From positions 1 to 35,344 of the IMG/VR virus record IMGVR_UViG_3300025108_000182: DNA of 35,344 nt, one strand, 5' to 3'. Under the pieces are notes generated by a model. It had not been told where the DNA came from. It searched no databases and saw only the letters and a list, made by a program, of their open reading frames with translations. A program made the translations under genes and the position numbers. Numbering within the stretch: position 1 is the stretch's first letter; the number at the start of each line of letters is the position of its first letter. Origin of the DNA: a virus. Shown one piece after another: positions 8,940 through 34,628 of the stretch.

Positions 8940-8957
8940 TTTAGGGATTTCCCTAAA
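8940..8957. repeat. 18-bp palindrome, copy 1
   Basis: Perfect TTTAGGGATTTCCCTAAA. It fills the gap between the stop of the 89-aa gene (8958) and the ribosome site of the SNF2 helicase. Read on the minus strand the centre is AA. Confidence 0.9.
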
Positions 8958-9227
8958 TCATTTCTTCTTTTTATAATTACGTGCGCGGTTCTTACTGCGG
9001 CTTTCTACACGTACGCCGTCTTTGTTTGTCCCACCTTTTGACAAGGCTTTCTTGTGACTAACATCTTTACCTTCGCGCTTGTCGGCTTTGCCGTTCTTAT
9101 TCTTATCCACACCCTTCTTATCCATAGCGCGTCTTGCACGTTGCCGTTCCATACGGGCTTCAAATGTTTTGCTACCAACTGGTGCGTTCTTTTGTTTGGG
9201 ACGATCTTTGGGGTTTTTGTATGGCAT
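8958..9227 (-). CDS. Very basic HNH-like mini-protein with EF-hand-like loop, 89 aa
   Basis: The protein is highly rich in Lys and Arg. Residues about 40-51 (DKNKNGKADKRE) match the DxNxNGxxDxxE pattern of an EF-hand or dockerin calcium loop. Next comes 'VSHKKALSKGGTNKDGVRV...SKNRAR', which resembles the HNH core 'VDHxxPLSKGGxNxxxNLRVxSxxxNR' but with Ser in place of the Asp before His. It may be a degenerate HNH nuclease or a structured DNA-binding peptide. The gene is coupled to the upstream Cas4-like nuclease by a TAATG overlap. It is probably a real gene; the function is open. Confidence 0.75.
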   Translation of the reverse strand: MPYKNPKDRPKQKNAPVGSKTFEARMERQRARRAMDKKGVDKNKNGKADKREGKDVSHKKALSKGGTNKDGVRVESRSKNRARNYKKKK

Positions 9228-9895
9228 TAGTTAGCTCCGTTATGAACACATTCGATTATAGGACAGTATCGTCTGCATAACCCGTTAGGTCGTGCGTTCC
9301 ACATGTCCTCTTTAGCTGCAGTCTCCATCTGCCCGTACTTGCCGAGCCATTTCTCCCACAGCTTACTCTTATCGTACTCCATGTATGTGTCTTTTACCAA
9401 GTCATTACATATTACAAACAACAACCCTGCACGTACCTTCTTTACTTGTGGGTAACGTGCCATGAGCGAGAGAGCCATTAGCTCCAACTGTCCTTTGTCG
9501 GCGTACTTAGACGACTTGCCTGTCTTGTAGTCGATCACTGTCGCTACATCGTCGTCCATTATTACCAGATCAGCTATCCCACGAAACCAAACGTCCGAGG
9601 AGTAGAAGTCACAGGCTTCTAGGTTTTCTGTTAGACCCATCTTTAGTTCACAGAGTTTGTCACCCTGTCTGTTCTTCAAAGATGTTAGGGCTTTGGTCGC
9701 AAAGCTAAACTTCGCGGGGATCGGTGCGTCCTTACCAATAAAGTCTTCTGCCATTTTATGAAACGCGTTGCCGTAAAGTATGGCTTCCGTCTGAACAAAT
9801 GGCACCTCCTTTAGGATGTGTTTATGGTAGTATTGTTTTGGACATTGTTCAAAGTCTTTTATTTTACTGAAAGACCACGGCCATACTTTTGTCAT
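9227..9895 (-). CDS. Cas4/RecB-like PD-(D/E)XK exonuclease with probable Fe-S cluster
   Basis: The protein is 222 aa. The RecB-type nuclease core is visible: His46 (GNAFHKMAE), Asp109 (GIADLVI), and Asp122-x-Lys124 (VIDYKTGK). One cysteine at about 18 (EQCPKQY) and three near the end (C207, C211, C216 in CRRYCPIIEC) reproduce the Cas4/AddB-type arrangement that holds a 4Fe-4S cluster. There is no CRISPR array in the window. A role in processing DNA ends during replication or recombination is therefore more likely than spacer acquisition. The start ATG overlaps the stop of the DNA polymerase gene as ATGA. Confidence 0.88.
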   Translation of the reverse strand: MTKVWPWSFSKIKDFEQCPKQYYHKHILKEVPFVQTEAILYGNAFHKMAEDFIGKDAPIPAKFSFATKALTSLKNRQGDKLCELKMGLTENLEACDFYSSDVWFRGIADLVIMDDDVATVIDYKTGKSSKYADKGQLELMALSLMARYPQVKKVRAGLLFVICNDLVKDTYMEYDKSKLWEKWLGKYGQMETAAKEDMWNARPNGLCRRYCPIIECVHNGAN

Positions 9896-11721
9896 TCACA
9901 TTCTCCATATGATTTACCCGTGCCGCTCTCGCATGTAATGGGTAAACCTTCTGCCCAATCGGGTATCTGGCTCATACATTCTTCAACATATGCTCGTGCT
10001 TCATCTAACTCTTCGTCAGTAACACAGGCCACAACGCTATCATGTACTGTTAGCACAACTTTGTATCTCTTGGCAATAAGTAACATTTGGTGACCTATGA
10101 TACAACGTGCAATAGCTTGACACACATTCTCCACTACCTTGCCGCCGTATATACGGTTCGGGCCTTTTCGGGTTTTGTATGTGTACTCGTACCCGCGCTC
10201 CCCACGTTCAGCCGCCAAGCCATGATAGAACATAGGTAGGCCAGAAGGTAAGACTATTGAGCTGGTAGGTGCGTCCACTTTTAACACACCTTCTTTACCA
10301 AACTGTAAGCTGTCGCCGCGTTGCATGTACTGTACAGTGTTGTTCGCATCGCGCCATAGTTGACTGATCGCGCCATTGGCATCGCGGTACACTTGTATAA
10401 TGCGCCGAGCTTCGTCCAACTCTATATACACACCCATACCCTGCAACTGTGCTTGGAACTTCGGTGCGCCCATGCCGTACCCTGCACCAAGAATTGTGGT
10501 CTTACCCACAAACCTCTGATCTTTGCTTACCCCGTCTACTGGCACGTTATATATACTAGACGCCATGTATTTATATACGTCCTCGCCATCCGCGAACTGC
10601 TTGGTCAAATCATCTTGCCCTGCAAGCCACGCCAATACACGCGCCTCGATCTGCGAACTATCACAGTCGATCAATGAATGTCCTTCGGGTGCTGTTATGC
10701 TACCCTTTAACTTCTTACCATTTGGCCCACGGCTAGGTAGGTTCTGCAGATTGATCTTATCATCACCGCCCCAACGCCCAGTGTGCGCCGCATAATATCT
10801 TACAGGGACGGGCAGAAGGCCACGGTCCGATATGTCTATAAATCTCTGTGTCCGCGTTTCTTCCAACGTAGACTTCGTGCCGAGCCGTGCGGCTACTAAG
10901 GCTTGTACCCTATCATCTGTGTGGTCAGCTAACGCTTTGAAATCTTCATCGCTCTTTGCAAATGCGAATGTTTCTTTGCCTGTAGTCAGGCTTGTTTTCA
11001 TGGGTGGCTTCACCCCAAACCCTTTCAACAACTCCGCAAACTTGGGGTTGGACATCAGGTCTTTCTTATCTTCTATACCTGCATCAGCTAACAGTTTTTC
11101 CTTACGTGCTTTTACGTCCTGCAAGTGAGAGTTCAACAGGTCACGATCCAATGTCAGCGTAGGCTCAGTAAACATACGCAACGTAGCGTCTATAAGACGT
11201 AACTCTTCCCGCGGGAAACGTTTGACCATTATGCTAAACAGTTTGTAGGTGAGGTCTACGTCATTGACGCAATAGTCCCCGTACTTACCTAAGTCTTCGG
11301 GTTCAAAATCTCCACGCCGTTTACCGATTGCGTTGAGTACCTCGTGCCCTTTAGCGCCGACACCATATCTCTCAGAAACCGCAGAGAGACTTGCGCGAGC
11401 TTCAGTCCCATGTAGAGCACGGGCGATACACAAAGTATCGGTATACATCCGAGGACGAATATCAAAACGCCAATTAAGAATGGCACCATCAAACATAGTA
11501 TTATGGCAAAGTAACATAGCTTTTTCCCAAGGGAAGCCCTTGAGGTATTGTTTAATCTGTTCATGCGTTCCACTTGCCCACTCCGTTTGTTGATTGTTAA
11601 GTTTTACACCCACGCCGATCACCTCAAAACGAGGATCACGGACGTAGGCTTCTGTTGTTATCTTACGCAGAGAATAGTCCCTGTCGTAATACGTCTCAAA
11701 GTCTAATGTTATAAGCTCCAT
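9892..11721 (-). CDS. Family A DNA polymerase with 3'-5' exonuclease
   Basis: The protein is 609 aa. The exonuclease domain opens with LDFETYYD (Asp7, Glu9), then 'LLCHNTMFDG' and 'YCVNDVDLTYKLF' as Exo II and III. The polymerase domain shows motif A as 'IDCDSSQIEARVLAWLAG', motif B as 'RFVGKTTILGAGYGMG', and motif C as 'VLTVHDSVV'. All catalytic acids are present. It lacks the 5' nuclease domain of bacterial PolI, as is usual for phage enzymes. It should be the replicative polymerase, working with the SSB and the AEP primase-helicase. The start overlaps the stop of the upstream DUF6378-like gene as TAATG. Confidence 0.95.
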   Translation of the reverse strand: MELITLDFETYYDRDYSLRKITTEAYVRDPRFEVIGVGVKLNNQQTEWASGTHEQIKQYLKGFPWEKAMLLCHNTMFDGAILNWRFDIRPRMYTDTLCIARALHGTEARASLSAVSERYGVGAKGHEVLNAIGKRRGDFEPEDLGKYGDYCVNDVDLTYKLFSIMVKRFPREELRLIDATLRMFTEPTLTLDRDLLNSHLQDVKARKEKLLADAGIEDKKDLMSNPKFAELLKGFGVKPPMKTSLTTGKETFAFAKSDEDFKALADHTDDRVQALVAARLGTKSTLEETRTQRFIDISDRGLLPVPVRYYAAHTGRWGGDDKINLQNLPSRGPNGKKLKGSITAPEGHSLIDCDSSQIEARVLAWLAGQDDLTKQFADGEDVYKYMASSIYNVPVDGVSKDQRFVGKTTILGAGYGMGAPKFQAQLQGMGVYIELDEARRIIQVYRDANGAISQLWRDANNTVQYMQRGDSLQFGKEGVLKVDAPTSSIVLPSGLPMFYHGLAAERGERGYEYTYKTRKGPNRIYGGKVVENVCQAIARCIIGHQMLLIAKRYKVVLTVHDSVVACVTDEELDEARAYVEECMSQIPDWAEGLPITCESGTGKSYGECE

Positions 11722-12155
11722 TAGCCTTTACTCGCTATCTCGCCACCACATGCCATGTACCCACAGGCGTCGATCCAGTTGTCAGGGTGCGTTGCGTTTG
11801 ACTTGATACGTGCAACCTTCAACAGGTTCATCATAACAGCTACGTCAGTAGCACTTACGTTTATGCCTAGATGCACAGACCAGTAGTCTCCGATGGTGGT
11901 GAAGTTATCTTCCATATTGCCGTGGTCAGCCGCACGATCTTTGGTCACATAACTCTTGGCTGTGTCTAACACAGCACCGCGTGTAGTCCTGCGCGCTTCC
12001 TTCTCGAACACTTCTTTCGGTGTGCCGATCTTCTGCATAAGTTTATACACATACCCATAAGACGTTTTGGTAGCCTTGGCGATCTCGCTCGTAGTAGACT
12101 GCGGATGCCTAATTTTATACGCCCACACTTTATCCGCTTTACTCTTCTTAACCAT
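11721..12155 (-). CDS. HTH plus DUF6378-like protein, 144 aa
   Basis: Residues about 8-45 look like a helix-turn-helix ('TTSEIAKATKTSYGYVYKLM'). Residues about 58-140 match the DUF6378 pattern I remember from phages: 'VLDTAKSYVTKDRAADHGNMEDNF...ISATDVAVMMNLLKVARIKSN..HPDNWIDACGYMACGGEIA'. DUF6378 proteins are small all-helical proteins of unknown role. The fusion to an N-terminal HTH is notable. The start has GGAGAACGGC before ATG. It is coupled to the DNA polymerase gene by TAATG. Confidence 0.82.
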   Translation of the reverse strand: MVKKSKADKVWAYKIRHPQSTTSEIAKATKTSYGYVYKLMQKIGTPKEVFEKEARRTTRGAVLDTAKSYVTKDRAADHGNMEDNFTTIGDYWSVHLGINVSATDVAVMMNLLKVARIKSNATHPDNWIDACGYMACGGEIASKG

Positions 12156-12164
12156 GCCGTTCTC

Positions 12165-12482
12165 CTATCTTGGCAAATCGTATTTTCTTTTTATGTCGGA
12201 AGCCCAACGTGGACTCATTCCGATTATTTCTGCGGCGGCTTTTAAGGTCATGCCACGTTGCAACATTCTGTTAACCATTTCCGCTTCTTTAGTTAGGGGT
12301 AACTTGTTAGCCTCCTTTTTGGGTCTACCACCCAGATGCCCATTTACTTTGTTATTGTTACCATTGCGTATAGCTTTGTTACGCAAAGACAGGCGTGGGT
12401 TCGCGGCTATATCTTTTTTGTTTTGTGCTTCCCATGCTTGCCTATACAAGTCTTCATACTTTACACGTTCAAGCTCGTTCAT
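12165..12482 (-). CDS. Small HTH protein, 105 aa
   Basis: The N-terminal half is charged and Asn/Lys-rich. The C-terminal ~40 residues form a clear HTH-like block ('MLQRGMTLKAAAEIIGMSP' then 'RWASDIKRKYDL'). A GGRPKKE patch in the middle resembles an AT-hook-like basic stretch. Its ATG overlaps the stop of the 62-aa gene upstream (ATGA). It is probably a DNA-binding regulator, but the target cannot be read from sequence. Confidence 0.7.
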   Translation of the reverse strand: MNELERVKYEDLYRQAWEAQNKKDIAANPRLSLRNKAIRNGNNNKVNGHLGGRPKKEANKLPLTKEAEMVNRMLQRGMTLKAAAEIIGMSPRWASDIKRKYDLPR

Positions 12483-12667
12483 ATGTTCTTACCTGCACGT
12501 CTCAGACCACGAACAAACACATCAAGGTGTTCCCGTGCTACCCACAGATCGCGCTTTACATTAGGACGTGCATCTTTTCGATTTTCTTCGTCCTGCAAGT
12601 TATCGACTTGTCGCCGCAACCATTTTAGTTCGTTCTCTTGGAACGGGGTTAATTTATTATCATCCAT
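12479..12667 (-). CDS. Small charged helical protein, 62 aa
   Basis: The open frame extends further upstream, but the ATG at 12667 has GGAGG with a 5-nt gap, so I choose it (MDDNKLTPFQENELKWLRRQ...). The protein is almost entirely helical and charged, with a probable coiled coil over residues 8-50. There is no known motif. It is coupled to the HTH gene downstream. Confidence 0.65.
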   Translation of the reverse strand: MDDNKLTPFQENELKWLRRQVDNLQDEENRKDARPNVKRDLWVAREHLDVFVRGLRRAGKNI

Positions 12668-12713
12668 GCCTGCCTCCATTGTTAAAGTGATGCCCTGAGA
12701 GCTAACACAGGGA

Positions 12714-12830
12714 CTAACCATATCGCGGTTTCTTCGGTGCAGTCACAACGCCATAAAAAGTATCATGGAGAGCATTGCCTACACTGCTATGGTTTTCGCG
12801 GGACAAATAATAAAACCGCAACCCACTCAT
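12714..12830 (-). CDS. Possible mini-protein, 38 aa
   Basis: A short frame begins at ATG 12828-12830, just after the VRR-NUC stop, and ends at TAG 12714-12716. The peptide starts MSGLRFYYLSRENHSSVGNA and ends PKKPRYG. It fits the otherwise empty 170-bp gap and has a protein-like composition, but no clear Shine-Dalgarno precedes it. It may be non-coding. Confidence 0.35.
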   Translation of the reverse strand: MSGLRFYYLSRENHSSVGNALHDTFYGVVTAPKKPRYG

Positions 12831-12838
12831 AGCTTGGG

Positions 12839-13141
12839 TTAAGAGTTAACTATAACAGACCATGCCTTCAGATCATCGGTAACACCTAGCATGTTGTCTT
12901 CGTTCACAACTAAGTCCAGACCACCTGCGGCTCGAATTTGTTTTAGGTTTTTGTCTTGCAAGGGTGTGGGTTTGTTCTTCCCTGCCTTGCACTCTATTCC
13001 AAAGAAGAAACCCTTGTAGCAACCCACGATGTCAGGCACTCCACTTTGTCCGTAACCACCTGTAACAGGGTAGAAGTAGTACGCGCCAAGTTCTTTTAGT
13101 TGCGCCACTACTTTCTTTTTAACTTTCGCTTCGGGTGTCAT
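12839..13141 (-). CDS. VRR-NUC domain nuclease, 100 aa
   Basis: This is a stand-alone VRR-NUC of the usual phage length. 'GGYGQSGVPDIVGCYKGFFF' carries the Gly-x-PD motif, and 'GIECKAGKNKPTPLQ' supplies the ExK pair and the following conserved segment. 'LKQIRAAGG' completes the fold. Single-domain VRR-NUC proteins are thought to cut branched DNA such as Holliday junctions. The frame is open from a GTG at 13153. The ATG at 13141 has GGAGA with a short gap, so that start is preferred. The start overlaps the end of the 63-aa coiled-coil gene. Confidence 0.9.
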   Translation of the reverse strand: MTPEAKVKKKVVAQLKELGAYYFYPVTGGYGQSGVPDIVGCYKGFFFGIECKAGKNKPTPLQDKNLKQIRAAGGLDLVVNEDNMLGVTDDLKAWSVIVNS

Positions 13142-13310
13142 TTTTCTCTCCACGCATCCATTGTAAATCTTTGGTTAGTTGTTCGCGTTGAGCCATTAGC
13201 TTATCCACAACTTGAGTAAGCCTAGCAATCTCGTTGCGTTGTACGGCAACCTTGCTTTGTAGCTTTGCGTATTTACCTTCGTCCAATTTATCTAAACTCC
13301 ATTTAGCCAA
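13119..13310 (-). CDS. Coiled-coil mini-protein, 63 aa
   Basis: The start is a TTG at 13308-13310, preceded by AGGGGG with a 5-nt gap, and there is no in-frame ATG nearby. Residues about 15-50 form a continuous coiled coil (KLQSKVAVQRNEIARLTQVV...). It overlaps the VRR-NUC start by 23 bp, so the two are likely coupled. Function unknown; it may be an oligomerising partner of the nuclease, which is inference. Confidence 0.6.
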   Translation of the reverse strand: MAKWSLDKLDEGKYAKLQSKVAVQRNEIARLTQVVDKLMAQREQLTKDLQWMRGEKNDTRSES

Positions 13311-13323
13311 CGTGACCCCCTAT

Positions 13324-13335
13324 GATACCAGTACC
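13324..13335 (-). repeat. Variant of the GATACTGGTATC palindrome
   Basis: On the minus strand GGTACTGGTATC differs by one base from the three control-region copies. It lies between an 18-bp palindrome and the TTG-start gene. The order relative to the palindrome is reversed compared with the control region. Confidence 0.5.
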
Positions 13336-13341
13336 CCAGAA

Positions 13342-13363
13342 GCGAGGAGCCGTGACCCCTCGC
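13342..13363. other. Hairpin beside palindrome copy 2
   Basis: GCGAGGAG and CCCCTCGC pair over 8 positions (one G-T pair on the minus strand) around a 6-nt loop. It is three bases from palindrome copy 2 and has no T-run, so it is not a standard terminator. Confidence 0.5.
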
Positions 13364-13365
13364 CA

Positions 13366-13383
13366 TTTAGGGATTTCCCTAAT
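13366..13383. repeat. 18-bp palindrome, copy 2
   Basis: TTTAGGGATTTCCCTAAT, one mismatch at the outer edge. It includes the TAG stop codon of the 83-aa gene on the minus strand. Confidence 0.88.
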
Positions 13384-13630
13384 TGTAGACCCAAAACAAA
13401 TATGGGCCGATCCTACACCCAACACCATCTACATCGTTAGGCGGTGGTGGTACTTCCAACAGGGACAGTACAGCTAACCTGTCTTGCATCCACATTGGAA
13501 GTTCGTCCACAGAAGCATAATCACCATCTATCTCTTTGTCAACACAGTTCATGCCAATGCTTGTTATCGTAACTTGTTTAGTATCGTAAGCTACGTTTAC
13601 GCGGTAAGTAATACCAGACGTTGTACCCAT
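13379..13630 (-). CDS. Unknown phage protein, 83 aa
   Basis: The ATG at 13630 starts MGTTSGITYRVNVAYDTKQV. A beta-rich N-terminal half is followed by 'ELPMWMQDRLAVLSLL' and a PPPPND turn. No domain is recognised. It ends inside palindrome copy 2 and starts just inside the stop region of the 308-aa gene upstream. Its role in the block is unknown. Confidence 0.6.
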   Translation of the reverse strand: MGTTSGITYRVNVAYDTKQVTITSIGMNCVDKEIDGDYASVDELPMWMQDRLAVLSLLEVPPPPNDVDGVGCRIGPYLFWVYN

Positions 13631-13641
13631 GTTATAACACC

Positions 13642-14565
13642 TTACACGTAGAGGTAAAACGTGTGGTCATTTACGCGGTGACCAACACCTTCAACAAAGT
13701 GACCATCTTCACATATACTCAAGGCCGCACACTTATGCTCCACGTCTTCTGGTACTTTGTCCATTGCGAATGTCTGCACAGTATCTATCTCGCACAAGTA
13801 GTTGGTTACATCTTTGATACGCGCACAGTTTACCACCTGTTGTCCGTAGCGTTCATTGACGTGTACAAAATTCATAGGCACAACCTCACTGAACAGTTTA
13901 CGATCTTCGGTCAAAGTAAACATGGCACGTATGTCCGCATCTAGCTCCTTGTCATTGAACGTATGCCCTGCCTGTACCATGCTCCGTATCTCAGCCATCA
14001 ATCTTTGCGAGGCTTTCTTGGCATCACCATACGGCGATGTGTCCAAACCCACCGCGGCAACTGCATCATCACACTGTTTTTTCTTGTCGTGTAGCACATG
14101 TTGCACACTGTTCTTCACACCACCAACCAACGCTTTTGCGCACTCCTGTATAGAGTAACTTTGAAGTGATCTCTTAACGTGTTTGACGGCGGTATCCATG
14201 TTGACTGACATACGCATGTTGTGTTGATCGCCACTATCACAATACTTCATGTTTTGTATGCCCCGTGCACAGACAATATACTTATCGTCACCATGCACAC
14301 TGGTGGCAAAGTCGCCGTACCCAATGTACCCCATAACCATAAGTTCACCTTTGCGGTATATGTGCATAGTGTTGTCGGTGCGCGGTATTGTATGGACGCG
14401 CATCTCCTTTCTCACCACACTGGCAAAGTCTCGTAACGCGGTGTACCTGCTGTTTGCCTCTTTGTAGTAATCATCACCGAGCCTACTATCCAACTTATCG
14501 AACCTTTCTTTATGAAGTTCGTAGTGTTCTTTGGCTTGTGCCAATGTTGTATGGTTTATACCCAT
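13642..14565 (-). CDS. Unknown phage protein, about 307 aa
   Basis: The open frame begins at 14598, but the ATG at 14565 (MGINHTTLAQAKEH) follows AAAGG at good distance and leaves only a 4-bp gap to the upstream stop, so I choose it. The N-terminal ~65 residues are helical and charged. The middle holds short strands ('KGELMVMGYIGYGDF', 'DDKYIVCARGIQN'). The C-terminus has 'HFVEGVGHRVNDHTFYLYV'. I recognise no catalytic motif. It is paired with the 342-aa gene upstream, and both have Tyr/His-rich composition. Confidence 0.65.
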   Translation of the reverse strand: MGINHTTLAQAKEHYELHKERFDKLDSRLGDDYYKEANSRYTALRDFASVVRKEMRVHTIPRTDNTMHIYRKGELMVMGYIGYGDFATSVHGDDKYIVCARGIQNMKYCDSGDQHNMRMSVNMDTAVKHVKRSLQSYSIQECAKALVGGVKNSVQHVLHDKKKQCDDAVAAVGLDTSPYGDAKKASQRLMAEIRSMVQAGHTFNDKELDADIRAMFTLTEDRKLFSEVVPMNFVHVNERYGQQVVNCARIKDVTNYLCEIDTVQTFAMDKVPEDVEHKCAALSICEDGHFVEGVGHRVNDHTFYLYV

Positions 14566-14569
14566 TATA

Positions 14570-15598
14570 TTAACCTTTCGTCTTTTTGTTGAAGTCACAT
14601 ATTTTGTTTATGTGACGATTGAACTGTGCCTTGACCCTCTTGTCGTGTTCTTCTGGCGTGTCGAACGTGTGGGCTAAGTGATAATCTGTTTCACCCATCA
14701 ACCCATACATCAGGTGCAGACGTAACTCGTGGTCAGGGTCACGAATTATCTTTTTCGTTATATCTGGGTTGGACTCGAACATACCCAACAGACCCCAACC
14801 ATACGAATACCCTGCGCTCATAGCCCTACGTACCTCGTTTACGCGCTCGGTGTGGTAGTCATGGTCGCGTGTTGGCAACAACGGATACATGGCAAACGCC
14901 CAATCGCGGAACTCAGCGATAGCGTCTTTCATCTTAGCCTTGGCTACCTTGTCCACACGAACCTTGGGCGGAATAGGAAGCGGCTTACCACCATCCACAA
15001 AAGATATTACACCGTTATCAATACGGAACGTCAGGGCCACACCATCGTCGCGTGTGGTGAAGTGTTTATTCCACTCGTGCCGTTGCCCGTCTCTTGGCAG
15101 ATCAAAACTAGCCACTGTGTTACTCTTAGCGAGAAAGTATTCTGTACCATGAGTAAAGGCCACAAAGTGTTTGCCATTACGGATTATGAAGTTCAGACCC
15201 GATGGCAAGTGTCTGGCTAAGAAACTATACCTGCTGTTGTGTGCACCTTGGCCTGTACCATTGCGCACCTTGATGGTCTCTGTACCATCTTTATGTCTGC
15301 GCCACACGATAGGCGCGAGCTTGATCTTCTCTGCTTCAGTAGGTTTCGGCTTTTCTCCTTTTGCGTGGTAGTAACTCCACCCAGTGAATATATCATCGCT
15401 ACCGTTCCAACCGTCTTGCAGTATGTAGCAGTTGGCGTTGATTTTTTGTATGCGTTCCCACTTGCGGTTGCGATCACCGATAGGTCTTAGATCGTCAGCT
15501 AGTGTATGATGTTTAGACACAAGCGGTTTGATGCTATCATAGTACGCCGCCACTTTGTCGAATGTATTTAAGTAATTGTTTTGCCAGTATAAGGCCAT
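14570..15598 (-). CDS. Unknown phage protein, 342 aa
   Basis: The ATG at 15598 (MALYWQNNYLNTFDKVAAYY) has GGAGA with a 6-nt gap, so it is preferred over the upstream in-frame ATG. The middle region is strand-rich ('GLNFIIRNGKHFVAFTHGTEYF', shortened here to its ends GLN...EYF). The rest is helical, with an RDHDYHTERVNEVRR segment. No known domain is seen. Palindrome copy 3 and a perfect 6-bp hairpin lie directly upstream of its ribosome site, so it may be regulated separately within the block. Confidence 0.65.
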   Translation of the reverse strand: MALYWQNNYLNTFDKVAAYYDSIKPLVSKHHTLADDLRPIGDRNRKWERIQKINANCYILQDGWNGSDDIFTGWSYYHAKGEKPKPTEAEKIKLAPIVWRRHKDGTETIKVRNGTGQGAHNSRYSFLARHLPSGLNFIIRNGKHFVAFTHGTEYFLAKSNTVASFDLPRDGQRHEWNKHFTTRDDGVALTFRIDNGVISFVDGGKPLPIPPKVRVDKVAKAKMKDAIAEFRDWAFAMYPLLPTRDHDYHTERVNEVRRAMSAGYSYGWGLLGMFESNPDITKKIIRDPDHELRLHLMYGLMGETDYHLAHTFDTPEEHDKRVKAQFNRHINKICDFNKKTKG

Positions 15599-15620
15599 TG
15601 TATTTCTCCATTTGTTGTGA

Positions 15621-15637
15621 GGTAACACCGCGTTACC
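15621..15637. other. Hairpin beside palindrome copy 3
   Basis: Perfect 6-bp inverted repeat GGTAAC/GTTACC with a 5-nt loop, between palindrome copy 3 and the Shine-Dalgarno of the 342-aa gene. Confidence 0.5.
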
Positions 15638-15644
15638 CCTTTCA

Positions 15645-15662
15645 TTTAGGGATTTCCCTAAT
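15645..15662. repeat. 18-bp palindrome, copy 3
   Basis: TTTAGGGATTTCCCTAAT, one mismatch at the outer edge. It lies between the stop of the 49-aa gene and the 342-aa gene. Confidence 0.88.
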
Positions 15663-15666
15663 TAGT

Positions 15667-15816
15667 TTACCAAGGTGGATCACCGTTCTCGTCCAGTGTT
15701 GGCATCTTGAACGTATAGTCACGCTCCACCTTTGGCTTTTCGTTTTCGGGTTTACGAGGTGGAATCAAACCGAGTAGGTTTAACTCTGCCTCTAACGAGT
15801 TAGGTAGATCACCCAT
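15667..15816 (-). CDS. Small protein, 49 aa
   Basis: The frame is open much further upstream, but the protein-like part starts at the ATG at 15816 (MGDLPNSLEAELNLLGLIPP). This start overlaps the stop of the zinc-finger gene by 8 bp, as is normal in this block. The peptide is Pro/Lys/Glu-rich and ends LDENGDPPW. No clear Shine-Dalgarno precedes it. Function unknown. Confidence 0.55.
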   Translation of the reverse strand: MGDLPNSLEAELNLLGLIPPRKPENEKPKVERDYTFKMPTLDENGDPPW

Positions 15817-16024
15817 CGTCGTCGCCCCAGTCCCGCTCGATCTCGCCAAGCCCATTGCAGTTCTCGCAATCAATCCATGTCTCGAACGGTTCGTAAGTAT
15901 TACCCGTCCACTTGAACTCCTCGCTTGTAACTTTACCCTGCCGATCTGTGTCCTTGCACTCAGGACAATCAATGAACGGGTTCTCTTCCGCGTCCATGAA
16001 TAACCCTTTTACTTTACCCATCAT
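15809..16024 (-). CDS. Zinc-ribbon-like small protein, 71 aa
   Basis: Two CxxC knuckles (DCPECKD at about 19-24 and DCENCNGLGE at about 52-57) resemble a zinc ribbon or DnaJ-type CxxCxG knuckle. The rest is acidic and ends DWGDDDG. The ATG overlaps the stop of the metallopeptidase/VWA gene and has GGAGG just before it. It probably binds zinc and may serve as an adaptor for the neighbouring VWA/AAA+ pair; that link is inference from position. Confidence 0.75.
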   Translation of the reverse strand: MMGKVKGLFMDAEENPFIDCPECKDTDRQGKVTSEEFKWTGNTYEPFETWIDCENCNGLGEIERDWGDDDG

Positions 16025-17286
16025 AAGTCCTCCGAAGTTACGTGCACTGTTACGCCGTGATCTGGCTTGGCACTTTTGTTATCCACAATCACCCACAACA
16101 CAGGGTGATCCCATTCACCCCAACCGCCGTACAGATAACCATCTGTAAACACGACAGACGCTTGTGGTTTTATGTTATGCTCACGCAAGTATGCAGGGAC
16201 ACAACGTACATCTGTGCCGCCCCCACCTACGGGTTCAGTCTTAGATGCCACAGTATCAAGTTCTTCGTGCATGTACTTCTCGTAGCCACAGACTTCTGTG
16301 TCCCAATAGCTTACGTGTAACTCGTCAGGCTTGACTGCCTCACAGATACCGACCAATTCACTGATCATTATCTGCTGTTCACGCTTACCGATTGAGCCAG
16401 ACATGTCATTGTGCTCTGCGATACATTGAACTTTTTCCGACACGCCAGAGGGCATGTAGATACCAGTACCCATGTAACGTCTGTTTGGACGCTTCCATGT
16501 AGAGAAGTCCTTACCTGCACAGGTGGTCTGTATGAACTCACGCAACACTTCGCGCCAATCCACCTTGGGCTGTAGCAACTCGTCGAGACTACGCGCTCCA
16601 CCACTGCCCATCTTACCTGCAACCAGTGCACCTTGACGTATAGCCTCGTCTACTTCGCGTTGTATTTCACGCTGTTCGTCCGCGGTCATATCCTTCGCGC
16701 CGCCCCAATCATGGCTGTCAAAACCTTCGGGGTGACCATCACCGTGTGGGCTGTTACCCTGTGACGTGGACGTGGACTCCCCCGGGCAGTCTTGAGGTTC
16801 GCCTTGGCCTCCACCTTGCGGTTTATCGTTGGCCGCATCGGGGTCGTAGATATCCCAGAAGATTTTAGCTGTGCCCCAACCTTTGTACTTGGGATCGTGG
16901 CAACCAAGATCGGGCATCTTGACCCAACCATCTTGACCATACTCTTCAATGATCTTGCCATTGATATCGTAGTCCATTGAGATGTTGGCTGTACGAGGAC
17001 ATATAGCCCACAGGTGTGCCCACGTTACCAAGTGACGATACATCTTGTGAAACACCTCGTGTATGACAACGAACCGAAGCTCTGCGTCAGTAAGAGTTGC
17101 AACGAACGCTCTACCGTACCACTCGTCACGTCCGTTGGTACAAGCTGTTGGTATACTCGGATCATCTGTGATTTCACGTTCACCGATCATCAGAAGCCCT
17201 GCGATCTCAGGCACTTTGCCCATCACCGCCACGACTGCTTTGGACAGCCGTTGCTCCTCGGTTATTTGTTTGCCTACTGCTAACAT
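16021..17286 (-). CDS. Metallopeptidase-like plus von Willebrand A domain protein (DUF2201-type)
   Basis: The protein is 421 aa. The N-terminal DUF2201-type domain has an HExxH zinc motif, HEVFH at 76-80. A low-complexity Gly/Ser/Asp linker spans about 155-200. The C-terminal VWA-like domain holds DMSGS at about 294-298 (DxSxS of the MIDAS metal site) and 'GGGGTDV' as the later MIDAS Thr/Asp. VWA/DUF2201 proteins are regularly paired with MoxR AAA+ ATPases, where they act as a substrate adaptor. The ATPase gene is two genes upstream here. Whether the HExxH is an active protease cannot be told from sequence. The ATG has GGAGG upstream. Confidence 0.88.
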   Translation of the reverse strand: MLAVGKQITEEQRLSKAVVAVMGKVPEIAGLLMIGEREITDDPSIPTACTNGRDEWYGRAFVATLTDAELRFVVIHEVFHKMYRHLVTWAHLWAICPRTANISMDYDINGKIIEEYGQDGWVKMPDLGCHDPKYKGWGTAKIFWDIYDPDAANDKPQGGGQGEPQDCPGESTSTSQGNSPHGDGHPEGFDSHDWGGAKDMTADEQREIQREVDEAIRQGALVAGKMGSGGARSLDELLQPKVDWREVLREFIQTTCAGKDFSTWKRPNRRYMGTGIYMPSGVSEKVQCIAEHNDMSGSIGKREQQIMISELVGICEAVKPDELHVSYWDTEVCGYEKYMHEELDTVASKTEPVGGGGTDVRCVPAYLREHNIKPQASVVFTDGYLYGGWGEWDHPVLWVIVDNKSAKPDHGVTVHVTSEDL

Positions 17287-17287
17287 G

Positions 17288-17620
17288 TTACTTCCTCCAC
17301 CACATCATAGCTTTCCACCACTGCGGCTTCGGCTTGATATCTTGTTCCATTTGATTAAGCATTGCACCCATATCATTTAGGGATTTCCCTAAACCGTCAG
17401 GCTCACCGAACTCGATCTCGTGTTTAGCGAACGCTGTGTCCACAACTTCACGGAACGTAGGCTCTTTACCATACGGCAAACCCTTTGCGCTTATGCGATT
17501 GATCACAGACGATGGTGTTCTACCCAATGCCTCTGCGATTTCTTTCGTTGGTGTCTTAGCTTCACGCATCAACACTAGCTCCGCATCCTCTGCGGCTGTC
17601 CATTTTTTGTACTTAGTCAT
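17288..17620 (-). CDS. Myb/SANT-like DNA-binding protein, 110 aa
   Basis: The N-terminal ~45 residues 'KKWTAAEDAELVLMREAKTP' and 'KEIAEALGRTPSSVINRI' form a SANT/Myb-like three-helix HTH with its conserved Trp. The second half is an unrelated Trp/Lys-rich tail ending WWKAMMWWRK. Of two nearby ATGs the second (17620) has the better gap to AGGAG. Palindrome copy 4 lies inside this gene and is translated as LGKSLN. It is wedged between the MoxR-type ATPase and the VWA protein with 1-bp and 10-bp gaps. It may regulate the cassette. Confidence 0.78.
   Translation of the reverse strand: MTKYKKWTAAEDAELVLMREAKTPTKEIAEALGRTPSSVINRISAKGLPYGKEPTFREVVDTAFAKHEIEFGEPDGLGKSLNDMGAMLNQMEQDIKPKPQWWKAMMWWRK
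17376..17393. repeat. 18-bp palindrome, copy 4 (intragenic)
   Basis: Perfect TTTAGGGATTTCCCTAAA inside the Myb/SANT-like gene, about 90 bp upstream of the metallopeptidase/VWA start. It is the only copy within a coding region. Confidence 0.9.
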
Positions 17621-17630
17621 AGTCATTCTC

Positions 17631-18725
17631 CTATTTCTTGTCCGCTTGGAACATGTAGTTGTTTTCTTTAGCCCACGTTGTGAACTTTCGGTTCTGCATC
17701 ACCATTGGTTGCTTGCTGTACTTGGGCGCACGCACACCATTGGCGAACATACCTTGTGCCTCTACGTCTAGTCGCGGCATGTAATCCATCCACGCGTTGA
17801 TCCAATCACTCTCGATAGATGCGAGTGTACGATAGACAACCATACATATACCTGCGGCACTGTCAGGAACTTTGGCGGTCTTTGGCTCGTCTTTGATAGA
17901 CTGTAGACTTGGTAGTTGGTCAGATAATTTCACAAACGCCATCAAGTCCATCGCACCGCGATCACCGATAGTACCCATCAGGGCGGCAGTCAGTGTGGTG
18001 TCATTGAACATATGACGTTGGTGTAAGATGTCAGACGCAGAGTGTAACGAACGAGGTGTTACAAACGCGGCGCGTTGTTGTTTGGGGTGAAATATATACG
18101 GGTTTTCATCAGGGTCTTTCACGTCCTCGAACGATGCAAACAAGTGTGGGTTGTCTTTACACCAACCAAGTAGACTGTGATCAATCCCGTTGTTGATACC
18201 CCACTCGATCCACTCCATGTTTGTTGACTTGCGTACCTGTACGACGCTCATGCGGTTACGTGCGTGTGGAGGTAACATGTCACCCACACCCTCAGACCCT
18301 TTGTTGGTGGTCGCATACACAATACTCTCAGGGTGTAGCTCGTAGCTACCAATCTTGCGCTCCAAGATCAGGCGTAGCAGTGCCAACTTAACAGACGGGT
18401 TGGCCTTACCAAACTCGTCAATCATAATAATGACAGGCTCACCTGTGTGTAGGCCAAGCTCCTCATTGGTGACGTAGCGAACGAACTTGCTGTTCTCGTC
18501 GATCTCCATGATCATTGGGATCATAATGTCACCGAGGTCGAGGCTCGTGCAGTCTACGTAGAACCTCTTATGTGTTGGCTTGAGTTTACCAACCTCACCG
18601 AGCGTTGACGACTTGCCGTTGCCGATGTCACCTTGCATCAGAACAGTACGTTCGTGACCGATAGCGCCGATCAACGTGACACATTCGTCGAGTGATAGGG
18701 CATACATTTGTTGGGCGTTATTCAT
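17631..18725 (-). CDS. MoxR-type AAA+ ATPase
   Basis: The protein is 364 aa. Walker A is GDIGNGKSS at 32-40 and Walker B is IIMIDEFGK at 99-107. A sensor-1 Asn lies in 'IVYATTNKGSEG', followed by a 'PPHARNRMSVVQV' segment with candidate arginine-finger residues. This is the MoxR/AAA_5 layout: a hexameric ATPase that remodels protein partners, often with a VWA-domain adaptor. The metallopeptidase/VWA gene follows after one small gene, and the DUF3150-like gene precedes it. The ATG has GGAGA with a 6-nt gap. A degenerate palindrome copy lies just upstream. Confidence 0.9.
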   Translation of the reverse strand: MNNAQQMYALSLDECVTLIGAIGHERTVLMQGDIGNGKSSTLGEVGKLKPTHKRFYVDCTSLDLGDIMIPMIMEIDENSKFVRYVTNEELGLHTGEPVIIMIDEFGKANPSVKLALLRLILERKIGSYELHPESIVYATTNKGSEGVGDMLPPHARNRMSVVQVRKSTNMEWIEWGINNGIDHSLLGWCKDNPHLFASFEDVKDPDENPYIFHPKQQRAAFVTPRSLHSASDILHQRHMFNDTTLTAALMGTIGDRGAMDLMAFVKLSDQLPSLQSIKDEPKTAKVPDSAAGICMVVYRTLASIESDWINAWMDYMPRLDVEAQGMFANGVRAPKYSKQPMVMQNRKFTTWAKENNYMFQADKK

Positions 18726-18742
18726 TTTATTTCTCCATTTGA

Positions 18743-18760
18743 TTTAGGGATTTCCCTATT
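18743..18760. repeat. 18-bp palindrome, copy 5 (degenerate)
   Basis: TTTAGGGATTTCCCTATT, two outer mismatches. It sits just upstream of the ribosome site of the AAA+ ATPase gene. Confidence 0.85.
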
Positions 18761-18764
18761 TGGT

Positions 18765-18857
18765 TTAGTATCCGAGGCCGTGGCCAATGATTAGTAAGGC
18801 GTAGCCCCCACCGAATATGGCGAGGACTGCTAGTAAGTCTGCGATAAAATCCTTCAT
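18765..18857 (-). CDS. Single-pass membrane mini-protein, 30 aa
   Basis: A short frame starts at ATG 18855-18857, overlapping the stop of the DUF3150-like gene as TAATG, and ends at TAA 18765-18767. The peptide MKDFIADLL... continues with a hydrophobic run (AVLAIFGGGYALLIIG) long enough to span a membrane, and ends HGLGY. The overlap and the fit to the gap support it as a real gene. Function unknown; it could tether a partner to the membrane or act as a small toxin-like peptide. Confidence 0.55.
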   Translation of the reverse strand: MKDFIADLLAVLAIFGGGYALLIIGHGLGY

Positions 18858-19777
18858 TACATATCCAGACTTGGTAGTGCAGACAGAGCCGCATCGAGTT
18901 TGGCGCGTGTGTTTTCGCGCAATGATGGTGACTTCTTGATGCTATCAACAGTCAGAGGCGCACCATCGGCGTAGTGTAGTGCCTGTTCGAGTTGACGTTT
19001 CATGGCTTCCATCTGGGTGTCACCTGTCACGTTACACGTACCCAACATCTCAGTCAGTGAGAGAGCTTGGTCAAACACAGTATCATACAGGCGGTTGCCC
19101 TTACCTTCTTCGTCCACGTCTAGCTGTCGGACAAGTCGGGTCAGGTTTGTATGTAGCCGCGTCCACACATCGTCCATCGCGCCCTTGATCTTGCGGTTGA
19201 ATGTATCGGTGTAGTTTGTGCGCAATGTCTGCATCGCTTCATGCGGCAGGTCGAGCCGCCAATCACCAGTGTTACCACCATCAGGTAACTGCTCATAGGA
19301 TAGACGGAACGCGAACTTATCACGGATAGCGTCACGCGTGGGATACTCGTCGCGGTTGAACATCGCGCCCAACTTGGCTTGCGCGTCCATGACTTTCCAC
19401 TCGTACACATTGAGGAAGTCGTCAACCATGCGCCAACCTTCGTCGATCATCTCGGTCATAACTTCGTTGTACTTGAAATACTGCATGGTGGTGACGAGGC
19501 GTTGCCCATTGTCAGACCACGGCATTGTCATGCTGTAGTGTAGGTTACGCAGATTACCTGCAAACTTTTGCAACGCGATAAGTTCGTCACAATTACCAAG
19601 CAAGTTCTTGGTCACGTTAGCCACGCCCTTGTCCGCGGCGTTCATGTTTGCCACATCGTCGGACGCTTTGTGGTCTTTCTTACGTGCTGTCCATATGGAC
19701 ATGCTAAGTTCCACAGTCATAGCAGATGAAGCAATGCTTGGTGCAGATGCCTCGGGGGTTTGAAATAGATCGTTCAT
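18857..19777 (-). CDS. DUF3150-like protein, 306 aa
   Basis: The early segment 'LSMSIWTARKKDHKASDD' resembles the 'xWxGRKKL' opening of DUF3150 proteins, which occur beside MoxR ATPase and VWA genes on plasmids and phages. The rest is helical and charged, and ends in a helix-rich tail. The assignment rests on this motif plus gene neighbourhood, not on a search. The ATG has GGAGA with a good gap. Palindrome copy 6 lies just upstream. It is probably the third component of the AAA+/VWA module. Confidence 0.65.
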   Translation of the reverse strand: MNDLFQTPEASAPSIASSAMTVELSMSIWTARKKDHKASDDVANMNAADKGVANVTKNLLGNCDELIALQKFAGNLRNLHYSMTMPWSDNGQRLVTTMQYFKYNEVMTEMIDEGWRMVDDFLNVYEWKVMDAQAKLGAMFNRDEYPTRDAIRDKFAFRLSYEQLPDGGNTGDWRLDLPHEAMQTLRTNYTDTFNRKIKGAMDDVWTRLHTNLTRLVRQLDVDEEGKGNRLYDTVFDQALSLTEMLGTCNVTGDTQMEAMKRQLEQALHYADGAPLTVDSIKKSPSLRENTRAKLDAALSALPSLDM

Positions 19778-19798
19778 TGTCTTTCTCCAATTTGGTTG

Positions 19799-19816
19799 TT
19801 TAGGGATTTCCCTAAA
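19799..19816. repeat. 18-bp palindrome, copy 6
   Basis: Perfect TTTAGGGATTTCCCTAAA between the stop of the zinc-ribbon gene (19820) and the DUF3150-like gene. Confidence 0.9.
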
Positions 19817-19819
19817 TGG

Positions 19820-20035
19820 TTAGCGGGTCTTTTGATTTAGATGTAGCAAGTCGTCCTTGCGAGTTACGAGAGTGTAGCCTTGCTTGGGGAGCGGTACTGT
19901 GCACCAACTGGCGCGTTGCTCCGTGGCTTGGTATTCACCGCAGTCTAGGCATACGTTGTAACCCAGACGCGCACGACGAACGCTGTAGTATTCTCCACAG
20001 CCGACACACTCAGGAGTGTAATGTTTACGTGGCAT
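19820..20035 (-). CDS. Zinc-ribbon protein, first gene of the leftward block, 71 aa
   Basis: The frame is open up to 20176, but the promoter lies inside that extension. The ATG at 20035 has GGAGG with a 7-nt gap, so it is the real start (MPRKHYTPECVGCGEYYSVR). Two cysteine knuckles, ECVGCGE and VCLDCGEYQA, form a probable zinc ribbon in the first half. The tail is basic. As the first gene after the early promoter it could be an early regulator; no catalytic motif is seen. Confidence 0.75.
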   Translation of the reverse strand: MPRKHYTPECVGCGEYYSVRRARLGYNVCLDCGEYQATEQRASWCTVPLPKQGYTLVTRKDDLLHLNQKTR

Positions 20036-20054
20036 TGTTTGACCTCCATGTTGA

Positions 20055-20072
20055 TTTAGGGATTTCCCTAAA
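20055..20072. repeat. 18-bp palindrome, copy 7
   Basis: Perfect TTTAGGGATTTCCCTAAA in the 5' leader between the early promoter and the zinc-ribbon start, where a bound protein could block elongation. Confidence 0.9.
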
Positions 20073-20137
20073 CGAAAGTTGATATGAACGAGACACACGA
20101 GTGCCTCGGTAGCCAACTGCGCGCTAACTACTCTGTA

Positions 20138-20166
20138 GTTATAACACAAGTATCGAGGAATGTCAA
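20138..20166 (-). promoter_or_regulatory. Early leftward sigma70 promoter
   Basis: On the minus strand TTGACA (20161-20166), a 17-bp spacer and TATAAC (20138-20143) give a near-consensus promoter. A start near 20131 would leave a leader of about 95 nt, carrying palindrome copy 7, before the zinc-ribbon gene. The spacer contains CCTCGATAC, matching half of the GATACTGGTATC element region at 20493-20507. Confidence 0.85.
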
Positions 20167-20235
20167 TACGTGTCAAAAACTATCGTATGAGGGGTAAACG
20201 TTGTATGTACCATCATGTACCACCACGTAGGTCTG

Positions 20236-20281
20236 TAAGTCATTGATATTAAACGAATGTAGCAATGTAGCATTTGTACCA
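20236..20281 (-). repeat. Inverted copy of the control-region module
   Basis: On the minus strand this carries TGGTACAAATGCTACATTGC plus T (20261-20281), identical over 21 bp to the plus-strand copy at 20364-20384. TCAATGACTTA (20236-20246) follows after a 14-nt insert instead of 6 nt. Confidence 0.85.
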
Positions 20282-20363
20282 TAATGGTATGTATAGATTC
20301 TTTTAGGCCAGAGACCCCCTCTCTTACCCTTCAATAAAAAGAAGATATATATACTTAAAAAAG

Positions 20364-20404
20364 TGGTACAAATGCTACATTGCTTTGTTTTCAATGACTT
20401 AGCC
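20364..20404 (+). repeat. Control-region module, direct copy A
   Basis: This is a 41-bp unit running from TGGTACAAATG to CAATGACTTAGCC. It is repeated with 39/41 identity 63 bp further on, and partly inverted at 20236-20281. Confidence 0.9.
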
Positions 20405-20426
20405 CCCATTTGCGGTGGTACACGAG

Positions 20427-20467
20427 TGGTACAAGTGATACATTGCTTTGTTTTCAATGACTTAGCC
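20427..20467 (+). repeat. Control-region module, direct copy B
   Basis: Second 41-bp unit, with two substitutions against copy A (TGGTACAAGTGATACATTGC at its start). The period between copies is 63 bp. Confidence 0.9.
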
Positions 20468-20492
20468 TTTGCGCAGGGCGACACGCTGTTGG

Positions 20493-20504
20493 GATACTGG
20501 TATC
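20493..20504. repeat. GATACTGGTATC palindrome, copy a
   Basis: 5-bp arms GATAC/GTATC around TG, preceded by GG. Exactly 6 bp separate it from palindrome copy 8. Confidence 0.85.
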
Positions 20505-20510
20505 GAGGTA

Positions 20511-20528
20511 TTTAGGGAAGTCCCTAAA
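20511..20528. repeat. 18-bp palindrome, copy 8
   Basis: TTTAGGGAAGTCCCTAAA: perfect arms, with centre AG instead of AA/TT. Confidence 0.9.
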
Positions 20529-20593
20529 CGTGACGGGGTGTTGTGTTACCCACATGGTACATGGTGAAACGTGCTAGGGCGTGGCGCAACTGG

Positions 20594-20605
20594 GATACTG
20601 GTATC
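20594..20605. repeat. GATACTGGTATC palindrome, copy b
   Basis: Identical to copy a, again exactly 6 bp before an 18-bp palindrome (copy 9). Confidence 0.85.
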
Positions 20606-20611
20606 AAATCA

Positions 20612-20629
20612 TTTAGGGAAATCCCTAAA
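20612..20629. repeat. 18-bp palindrome, copy 9
   Basis: Perfect TTTAGGGAAATCCCTAAA, in opposite orientation to copies 1-7. It lies beside the T-run of the leftward terminator at 20631-20655. Confidence 0.9.
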
Positions 20630-20630
20630 C

Positions 20631-20655
20631 AAAAAAAGACCCGCCGAAGCGGGTC
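20631..20655 (-). terminator. Leftward rho-independent terminator
   Basis: On the minus strand GACCCGC-TTCG-GCGGGTC, a perfect 7-bp stem with a stable UUCG loop, is followed by seven T. Confidence 0.9.
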
Positions 20656-20680
20656 AGGTAAAGCATTATGGTATGATGCA
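20631..20680 (-). ncRNA. Candidate ~50-nt small RNA
   Basis: A possible promoter (20686-20714) is followed about 50 nt later by a strong terminator, with no room for a gene. The predicted transcript has an imperfect 7-bp hairpin (GCATCAT-ACC-ATAATGC) and then the terminator hairpin. No known RNA family is recognised. Expression is unproven. Confidence 0.35.
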
Positions 20681-20685
20681 GTGTT

Positions 20686-20714
20686 GGTATAGCACATAAC
20701 GTATCAGGGCGCAA
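20686..20714 (-). promoter_or_regulatory. Possible promoter for the small RNA
   Basis: On the minus strand TTGCGC (20709-20714), a 17-bp spacer and TATACC (20686-20691). A moderate match to sigma70 signals. Confidence 0.4.
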
Positions 20715-20738
20715 CATGCAGTGGCGTTACGCAAATGG

Positions 20739-20750
20739 GATACTGGTATC
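20739..20750. repeat. GATACTGGTATC palindrome, copy c
   Basis: Third identical copy. Unlike a and b it has no 18-bp palindrome beside it; a terminator lies 10 bp away. All three copies share degenerate GCG/CGCC blocks on the same side, so the full unit is about 30 bp. Confidence 0.8.
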
Positions 20751-20759
20751 ATTGGACAT

Positions 20760-20791
20760 AAAAAAATGGCCACTCCAATTAAGGAGTGACC
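20760..20791 (-). terminator. Leftward terminator after the 179-aa gene
   Basis: On the minus strand GGTCACTCC-TTAATT-GGAGTGGCC (9-bp stem with one G-T pair) is followed by A and a run of seven T. It starts 8 bp after the stop of the gene at 20800. Confidence 0.9.
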
Positions 20792-20799
20792 GAGTAGTT

Positions 20800-21339
20800 T
20801 TATCTTTTGATTGATAGTGTATCGAATACTGTCAAGATTGCCTTGCGCGTTGGTGTGTAATCTTTACCCAACTCAACACTGTTTTTCTCAACCCAATTCT
20901 TTACGTTGGTTATGAGTTGGTCGCGCATCTCAATGGTTGTTTTGGTATCAGTAGTTTTTAGTGTTACTGTATCATTCTCAACCGCTTCGATCTTGCCAAG
21001 GTTGCCTTTAGTATCGGCGTATACCTCTGGCGCTTGGCGTAGCATCAGTTGGTTCTTTAGGTCTTTAATCTCTGCACCAACGGCCATTGTATCGTGGTCG
21101 CGTTTCTTGCCTTTCAAGATACCTTCAAACAATTCTTTCAGTTGAGCGTATGCTTCAGGACTAGCGGTTGATTTGCCAGAGGCCAGATTGTTCTTGGTAG
21201 GTGATACCGCGTCCGTCCAACGCATGTGTTGCTTTACTACATCCATATGCTTCGAGAACGTATCCTCTGCACCTAGCTTGCCACCCCATGCTTTTTTGAT
21301 AGCGTCGATTGCTTGTGTGTTCATTGTAAGATTTGACAT
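20800..21339 (-). CDS. Unknown stand-alone early protein, 179 aa
   Basis: Three in-frame ATGs are close together. The one at 21339 (MSNLTMNTQAIDAIKKAWGG) has GGAG at usable distance and fits the pattern of this phage. The protein is charged, with a helical first two thirds and a short beta segment 'LGKIEAVENDTVTLKTTD' that resembles a small barrel or KOW-like turn. No domain is recognised. It is separated from the main block by its own terminator and has its own upstream region, which suggests individually controlled expression, perhaps an early regulator or host-takeover protein. That is inference. Confidence 0.7.
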   Translation of the reverse strand: MSNLTMNTQAIDAIKKAWGGKLGAEDTFSKHMDVVKQHMRWTDAVSPTKNNLASGKSTASPEAYAQLKELFEGILKGKKRDHDTMAVGAEIKDLKNQLMLRQAPEVYADTKGNLGKIEAVENDTVTLKTTDTKTTIEMRDQLITNVKNWVEKNSVELGKDYTPTRKAILTVFDTLSIKR

Positions 21340-21475
21340 TGTATTAGTCTCCATAAAAAATCGTAGGTCTTAATGACTTCATTGTCTGCCTTCGATATAA
21401 TCTTTATGCCATGATATAACGTGTTACACAATAGATAGAACCGCACTAGATGATACTATATGGCATTAGATACCA

Positions 21476-21493
21476 TTTAGGGAAATCCCTAAA
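21476..21493. repeat. 18-bp palindrome, copy 10
   Basis: Perfect TTTAGGGAAATCCCTAAA between the divergent transcription units, about 135 bp upstream of the late promoter. Confidence 0.9.
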
Positions 21494-34618: not shown

Positions 34619-34628
34619 GGAGACAGAA

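Follow-up and report, generated by a model that had tools for sequence, protein, structure and literature searches.

Palindromic, dispersed repressor sites upstream of early genes are known from actinophage phiC31, where they are the conserved inverted repeats. The stoperators of the Cluster A mycobacteriophages (L5/Bxb1) are asymmetric 13-bp sites, oriented with transcription and present in up to about 30 copies per genome, which are bound by a monomeric helix-turn-helix repressor (PMC6550527, PMC9283540). Phage P1 C1 has 22 dispersed operators, 17 bp long and asymmetric, including sites involved in the control of vegetative replication (PMC8546580). The composite OM-OR operator of TP901-1 is a two-part site on which two proteins, CI and MOR, sit side by side as one complex that works a single switch (PMC7250872).

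The window analyzed here, that is, the whole stretch of 35,344 nucleotides, carries a set of palindromic sites that in related phages are replaced, all copies together, by other palindromes. As with the Cluster A stoperators, the sites are dispersed and mostly off promoters, with further sites near the repressor gene, which here is the proposed repressor gene R. Many of them (here about 10, for a putative repressor) lie within transcription units, away from promoters, and the motif varies with the repressor among relatives (PMC6550527), as it does here with R (6 changes of operator type on the R tree versus 14 on the TerL tree). Unlike the asymmetric stoperators, the sites described here are symmetric palindromes of 17 to 20 bp, with about 10 per genome and a proposed reader without a recognized fold. 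The likeness to P1 C1 lies in the many operators of one repressor, here a proposed one, spread over the genome; the difference lies in the asymmetric 17-bp site of C1 as opposed to the TTTAGGGAnnTCCCTAAA palindromes, and we know of no case in which all C1 operators have switched together among near-identical relatives. The repressor family of phiC31 differs from R as far as is known, and the likeness to that phage is one of description. In contrast to the TP901-1 operator, one part of the site found here belongs to a dispersed network and the other part does not switch. The system is filed here as a form of dispersed-operator control and not as a member of the Cluster A stoperator or P1 C1 family.

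The 35 kb contig that makes up the window comes from an uncultivated tailed phage. Its replication-type genes (DUF927 primase, SSB-like, SNF2 helicase, exonuclease, PolA, AAA ATPase, and DUF2201) are on the − strand, the head genes (TerL, portal, and major head protein) are on the + strand in the opposite arm, and the control region that holds the two-part module lies between the two arms. Searching an annotated phage collection with the window DNA revealed no close relative, and the nearest named TerL proteins are 40 to 48% identical to that of the window (e.g., HTVC027P and DSL-LC04). A tyrosine integrase (PF00589) gave no match in six records, some of 62 and 65 kb, which may be incomplete, and Rfam and tRNA searches gave no match. 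Among bacterial genomes, a single distant TerL (77% identity) was found on a contig binned in a Rhodobacterales MAG (L159, CALCGO010000315.1), which is a hint to the host.

The module consists of GATACTGGTATC, exactly 6 bp, and an 18-bp palindrome, and occurs twice, at 20493-20528 and 20594-20629, as the earlier note on this DNA had described; a third GATACTGGTATC, which that note gave as lacking a palindrome, indeed lacks one. The three copies of GATACTGGTATC are at 20493-20504, 20594-20605, and 20739-20750, and the palindromes are TTTAGGGAAGTCCCTAAA (20511-20528) and TTTAGGGAAATCCCTAAA (20612-20629). The GCG and CGCC blocks said to be common to the three copies were also recovered, all three fitting GCGnnnnGC-N8-TACTGGTATC. 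The full elements, called E here, are all on the + strand: E1 (GCGACACGC-N8-TACTGGTATC) at 20478-20504, E2 at 20579-20605, and E3 at 20724-20750, the last being without a palindrome in genomes of the window's operator type (type I) and with one in several type-II relatives. A search for the 27-bp form with up to 3 mismatches gave 4 matches in the window versus 0 in 100 shuffles. The variant reported at 13324 is present on the − strand as GGTACTGGTATC, together with the GC block (score 22); in full it reads GCTCCTCGC-N8-TACTGGTATC and lies at 13324-13350 in the leader of the nuclease gene region, sense to the gene. Another variant, absent from the earlier note, is at 5248-5278 (+), inside the DUF927 primase gene and antisense to it. 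A half-site had also been noted in the spacer of the early promoter; GATACT does occur there within TTGACA-17-TATAAC, but relatives have GCTACT, GATATA, GCTCTA, or GACAAT at this place, so this half of E is probably a coincidence.

The palindrome proved to have a wider scope than the module. The palindrome search with TTTAGGGAnnTCCCTAAA found 10 places (20 strand hits) versus 0.12 expected, all within 8940-21493: seven in the leftward operon, two beside E elements (20511-20528 and 20612-20629, each at 6 bp), and one in the divergent promoter region that separates R from terS (21476-21493). The eight copies beyond the module have no E element 6 bp away. In the leftward operon, one copy is in the early leader, at about +69 to +86 from the predicted start (20055-20072), and others precede the start of the 306-aa gene by 21 nt (19799-19816), that of the AAA ATPase gene by 17 nt (18743-18760, with 2 mismatches), that of the gene for a 342-aa product by 46 nt (15645-15662), and that of the SNF2 helicase gene by 12 nt (8940-8957). 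Of the remaining two, one is within the 112-aa gene and 89 nt ahead of the DUF2201 metallopeptidase/VWA gene (17376-17393), and the other precedes the VRR-NUC-like nuclease region, where the E variant follows (13366-13383). Typically, these copies come right after one stop codon and 10 to 21 nt ahead of the next start codon, before the ribosome-binding site; at two genes with an extra leader hairpin the distance is 46 to 55 nt. The orientation of the palindrome centers looks consistent at the gene-gap sites of the window; a strand rule for the centers is, however, not kept in type II.

Relatives, taken as contigs fetched by their TerL, carry other palindromes in the same gene gaps, and all copies in a genome switch together, giving six types in total. 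The positions in orthologous gene gaps are kept through the type changes; in G003 and G006, type II TTTCGGGCAnnTGCCCGAAA stands in place of every copy. The other four, types III to VI, came from a de novo search or a scan. The half-sites of the six types are alike (TTTAGGGA, TTCGGGCA, GTTAGGGA, GTTAGTGC, GTTAGTCA, and TTCGGGTA), and this kinship suggests one mode of recognition with altered specificity. On a TerL tree of 64 loci, operator type changes 15 times; it is therefore exchanged among close relatives and not inherited with the backbone. A lone type-I operator is present at 146-163 of L010, where R and the other operators are of type II; this may be a transitional genome or a chimeric or mosaic assembly.

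Judged from sequence comparison, the protein that reads the palindromes is most likely the product of R, a gene for 179 aa of no recognized family at 20800-21339 on the − strand. R is the only large early-region ORF of the window that is present in all six type-I genomes (60 to 74% identity) and escapes sequence detection in the two type-II genomes, which have a distant R homologue at the same place (18 to 20% identity in alignment). R homologues were collected from 62 loci. Across the same 54 loci, operator type changes 6 times on the R tree, versus 14 times on that of TerL and 13 times on that of TerS, the neighbor of R, and none of the 54 loci is discordant between the main two R clades and operator class. 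Independent pairs on well-supported TerL branches were concordant with operator class in 6 of 6 cases (sign test, P = 0.031, with only six such pairs). Operators up to 12 kb from R match the type of R in all full genomes read. L116 (type I) and L010 (type II) have TerL proteins that are 100% identical and R proteins that are 18% identical. In L008, the most telling genome, TerL and the portal start on the right flank are 97 to 100% like those of type-I G001, and the 306-aa gene on the left flank has 88% nucleotide identity to type-I G002 right up to the operator; nevertheless, its R and all six operators seen are of type II. The operators therefore appear to be rewritten in place to match R. 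The pattern suggests that R and operator type diversify together, like immunity repressors and their operators.

R was modeled as a mostly helical protein with high confidence (AlphaFold pLDDT 89.9). Fold searches with Foldseek against PDB and BFVD gave no confident match, and the best Z of VIA-align, 5.4 to 5.6 over about 45 to 50 residues of a helical hairpin, is at background. Pfam gave no hit, PHROGs and PDB sequences no significant match, and the R profile did not match ORFs of DSL-LC04, HTVC027P, or Rhizobium phage TM3_14A. Since no structure library gave a convincing match, DNA binding is a property that we infer for R. It also counts against R as the reader that type-I operators accompany two far-apart R lineages. 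A control gene, zn71, tracks operator type fairly well (3 changes, versus 2 for R and 6 for TerL, over 20 loci), and a 71-aa gene (15809-16024), found in five type-I genomes, has an R-like type-I-specific pattern; either may be regarded as an alternative candidate reader of the palindrome. A helix-turn-helix protein (12165-12482) is missing from type-I G001 and hence not needed for this function, and a SANT-like 112-aa protein (17288-17626) was set aside since both type-II genomes encode it and it is largely missing from the remaining type-I genomes. SANT/Myb-like helix-turn-helix proteins (KWTAAEDAELVLMREAKTPTKEIAEALGRTPSSV) occur among the early genes of the window (17288-17626), G001 (34350-35059), and G002 (905-1681).

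The E element behaves differently from the palindrome. Genomes of types I, II, III, IV, and VI carry it in the control region two or three times in direct orientation, in the form GCGnnnnGC-N8/9-TACTGGTATC; a shorter core, CTGGTATC, is conserved in more distant types, and type V and part of type IV have a degenerate form, GAAACCAGTT, that points leftward. Because E stays constant when R changes, it would be read by a protein other than R. The geometry of the two parts was compared among relatives. Of 26 distinct type-I copies, 25 have a gap of 6 bp, and 25 have the end of TACTGGTATC 15 bp from the palindrome center. Type II has a 20-bp palindrome with a gap of 5 in 22 of 27 copies, which keeps the distance to the center at 15 bp in the same proportion (22/27). 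Gap and distance to the center are 7 and 16 in type III, 3 and 12.5 in type IV, and 7 and 17 in two of the three copies of type VI. The 6-bp spacing of the earlier note is thus kept in nearly all copies of type I and not in types III and IV or in two of the three type-VI copies. The outcome that the note named as a refutation, loss of the spacing in relatives, is therefore seen in part, and the geometry is preferred, not absolute.

The region beyond E1 (20200-20470) is conserved even in distant relatives. Short repeats form arrays there, in inverted orientation, on either side of a conserved AT-rich core, AAGTATATATA, and the region is likely to be the replication origin. The short repeat differs in concert between relatives (GTACCA, GTTCCG, GTTCCA, GTACCG, and GAGAAT forms), which may hint at a second diversifying specificity. 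Leftward intrinsic terminators on the − strand lie just upstream of operator 2/E2 (20638-20655, conserved in position in relatives) and, as the terminator of R, just upstream of E3 (20768-20791). The segment between E3 and the second leftward terminator (20656-20723) is of near-constant length in most relatives (E2 to E3, 144 to 145 bp) and could be a small RNA gene.

Conservation within the palindrome was counted in 149 distinct sites of type I and 90 of type II. In these, the innermost A..T positions are kept in 288 of 298 type-I and 179 of 180 type-II half-sites, as are the arms, and the two central bases vary. Since an RNA hairpin could not pair these innermost positions and a protein dimer on DNA can contact them, the palindrome appears to be read as DNA rather than RNA. 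No excess of sigma-70 promoters was found upstream of the gene-gap operators, where the scores are at background. The one good promoter, the early leftward TTGACA-17-TATAAC (20148-20176, −), is conserved in relatives, and the operator at 20055-20072 follows the early start by about 70 bp, without overlap with the −35 or −10 box. Classical occlusion of a sigma-70 promoter does not agree with these positions, which favor a block of elongation, the direction of regulation being presumed. In the early transcript leader (20078-20130, −), two tandem hairpins (AGTAGTTAGCGCGCAGTTGGCTAC and CGAGGCACTCGTGTGTCTCG) are possible and are conserved in several type-I genomes; we take them to be reminiscent of put-type antitermination leaders.

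The explanation that we consider probable, at somewhat better than even, is that the palindromes are operators of R, a diversifying regulator, that E has a separate reader, and that R and its operators form an immunity-like pair. The palindrome would be a double-stranded DNA operator, a symmetric dimer site placed about ten times in the early and replication half of the genome. As roadblock or repressor, R would lower expression of the leftward early operon by halting elongation at one gene after another, and it would also control the elements on the origin side and the divergent promoter region of its own gene. At the edge of the likely origin, E would serve as the conserved site of another protein, one that does not switch, and R bound 15 bp away, as measured to the palindrome center, would touch or block that protein. 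The module is then best explained as the meeting point of two separate regulatory networks, that of the palindrome and that of E.

Other explanations of the palindromes were weighed against this one. Most copies lie 10 to 21 nt ahead of a start codon, after the preceding stop codon and before the ribosome-binding site, as might be expected of mRNA hairpins to which a translational regulator, possibly still R, binds. This reading seems unlikely given that the innermost A..T, unpaired in any hairpin, is conserved like the arms while the two central bases are free; moreover, the control-region copies are not beside a gene start, operators also occur within genes (17376 of the window and 25239 of G003), and Rfam gave no match. 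A similarly low probability is given to the palindromes being activator sites of middle promoters that use a phage factor. Such sites would agree with the palindromes preceding many genes of one functional class and with the lack of an excess of classical sigma-70 promoters, but the 10 to 21 nt to the start codon often leave no room for a downstream promoter, and what lies upstream is the end of the previous gene's coding sequence. It is also improbable that R and operator type share ancestry or recombination blocks without interacting. Joint inheritance could be expected for the operators close to R, yet those up to 12 kb away still match its type, the adjacent TerS does not track operator type, and L008 has type-II operators within type-I-like flanks.

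The earlier note took the constant spacing to suggest two proteins or one protein with two domains. Two separate readers are supported by the independent evolution of the two parts, TACTGGTATC being nearly constant across the switches among the six palindrome types. A single two-domain protein on both halves, which the near-constant geometry in types I and II might suggest, is very improbable, since the two sequences do not switch together, 8 of 10 palindromes lack an E at 6 bp, type-I genomes have E3 without a palindrome, and the geometry shifts in types III, IV, and VI. The identity of E itself is a closer matter. It is a real possibility, somewhat short of even, that the E copies are iterons of a replication initiator (or terminase or packaging sites), with the adjacent palindrome allowing R to shut replication off, and this is compatible with the palindromes being operators of R. 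The two or three direct copies border the conserved inverted-repeat arrays around the AT-rich core, and two of them are shielded by terminators; on the other hand, there are variants far away at 13324 and 5248, the origin is itself a deduction, and terS is only about 1 kb away, which would also suit a role in packaging.

On the reading that the palindromes are operators of R, a rewriting of the whole operator set upon a change of regulator, which is hard to catch, appears here repeatedly among close relatives, so that the successive steps by which immunity or regulatory specificity evolves can be traced (e.g., L116 versus L010, and L008). Moreover, the constant E beside a switching operator marks where replication probably starts and is controlled in a widespread group of uncultivated phages. 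More tentatively, and with the balance leaning against it, R may found a family of DNA-binding regulators with an undescribed fold and a fast-diversifying specificity (at least six operator types), its ten operators being rewritten in place in near-identical phages as an immunity or incompatibility system of uncultivated marine phages without a recognized integrase. The collection provides a short list of R proteins with their matching sites, and possibly a new DNA-binding fold. A relative of the replication module, Rhizobium phage RHph_TM3_14A (L158, MN988472), has about 20 copies of a palindrome of its own, GTTACC-N6-GGTAAC or close to it, in gene gaps and inside genes.
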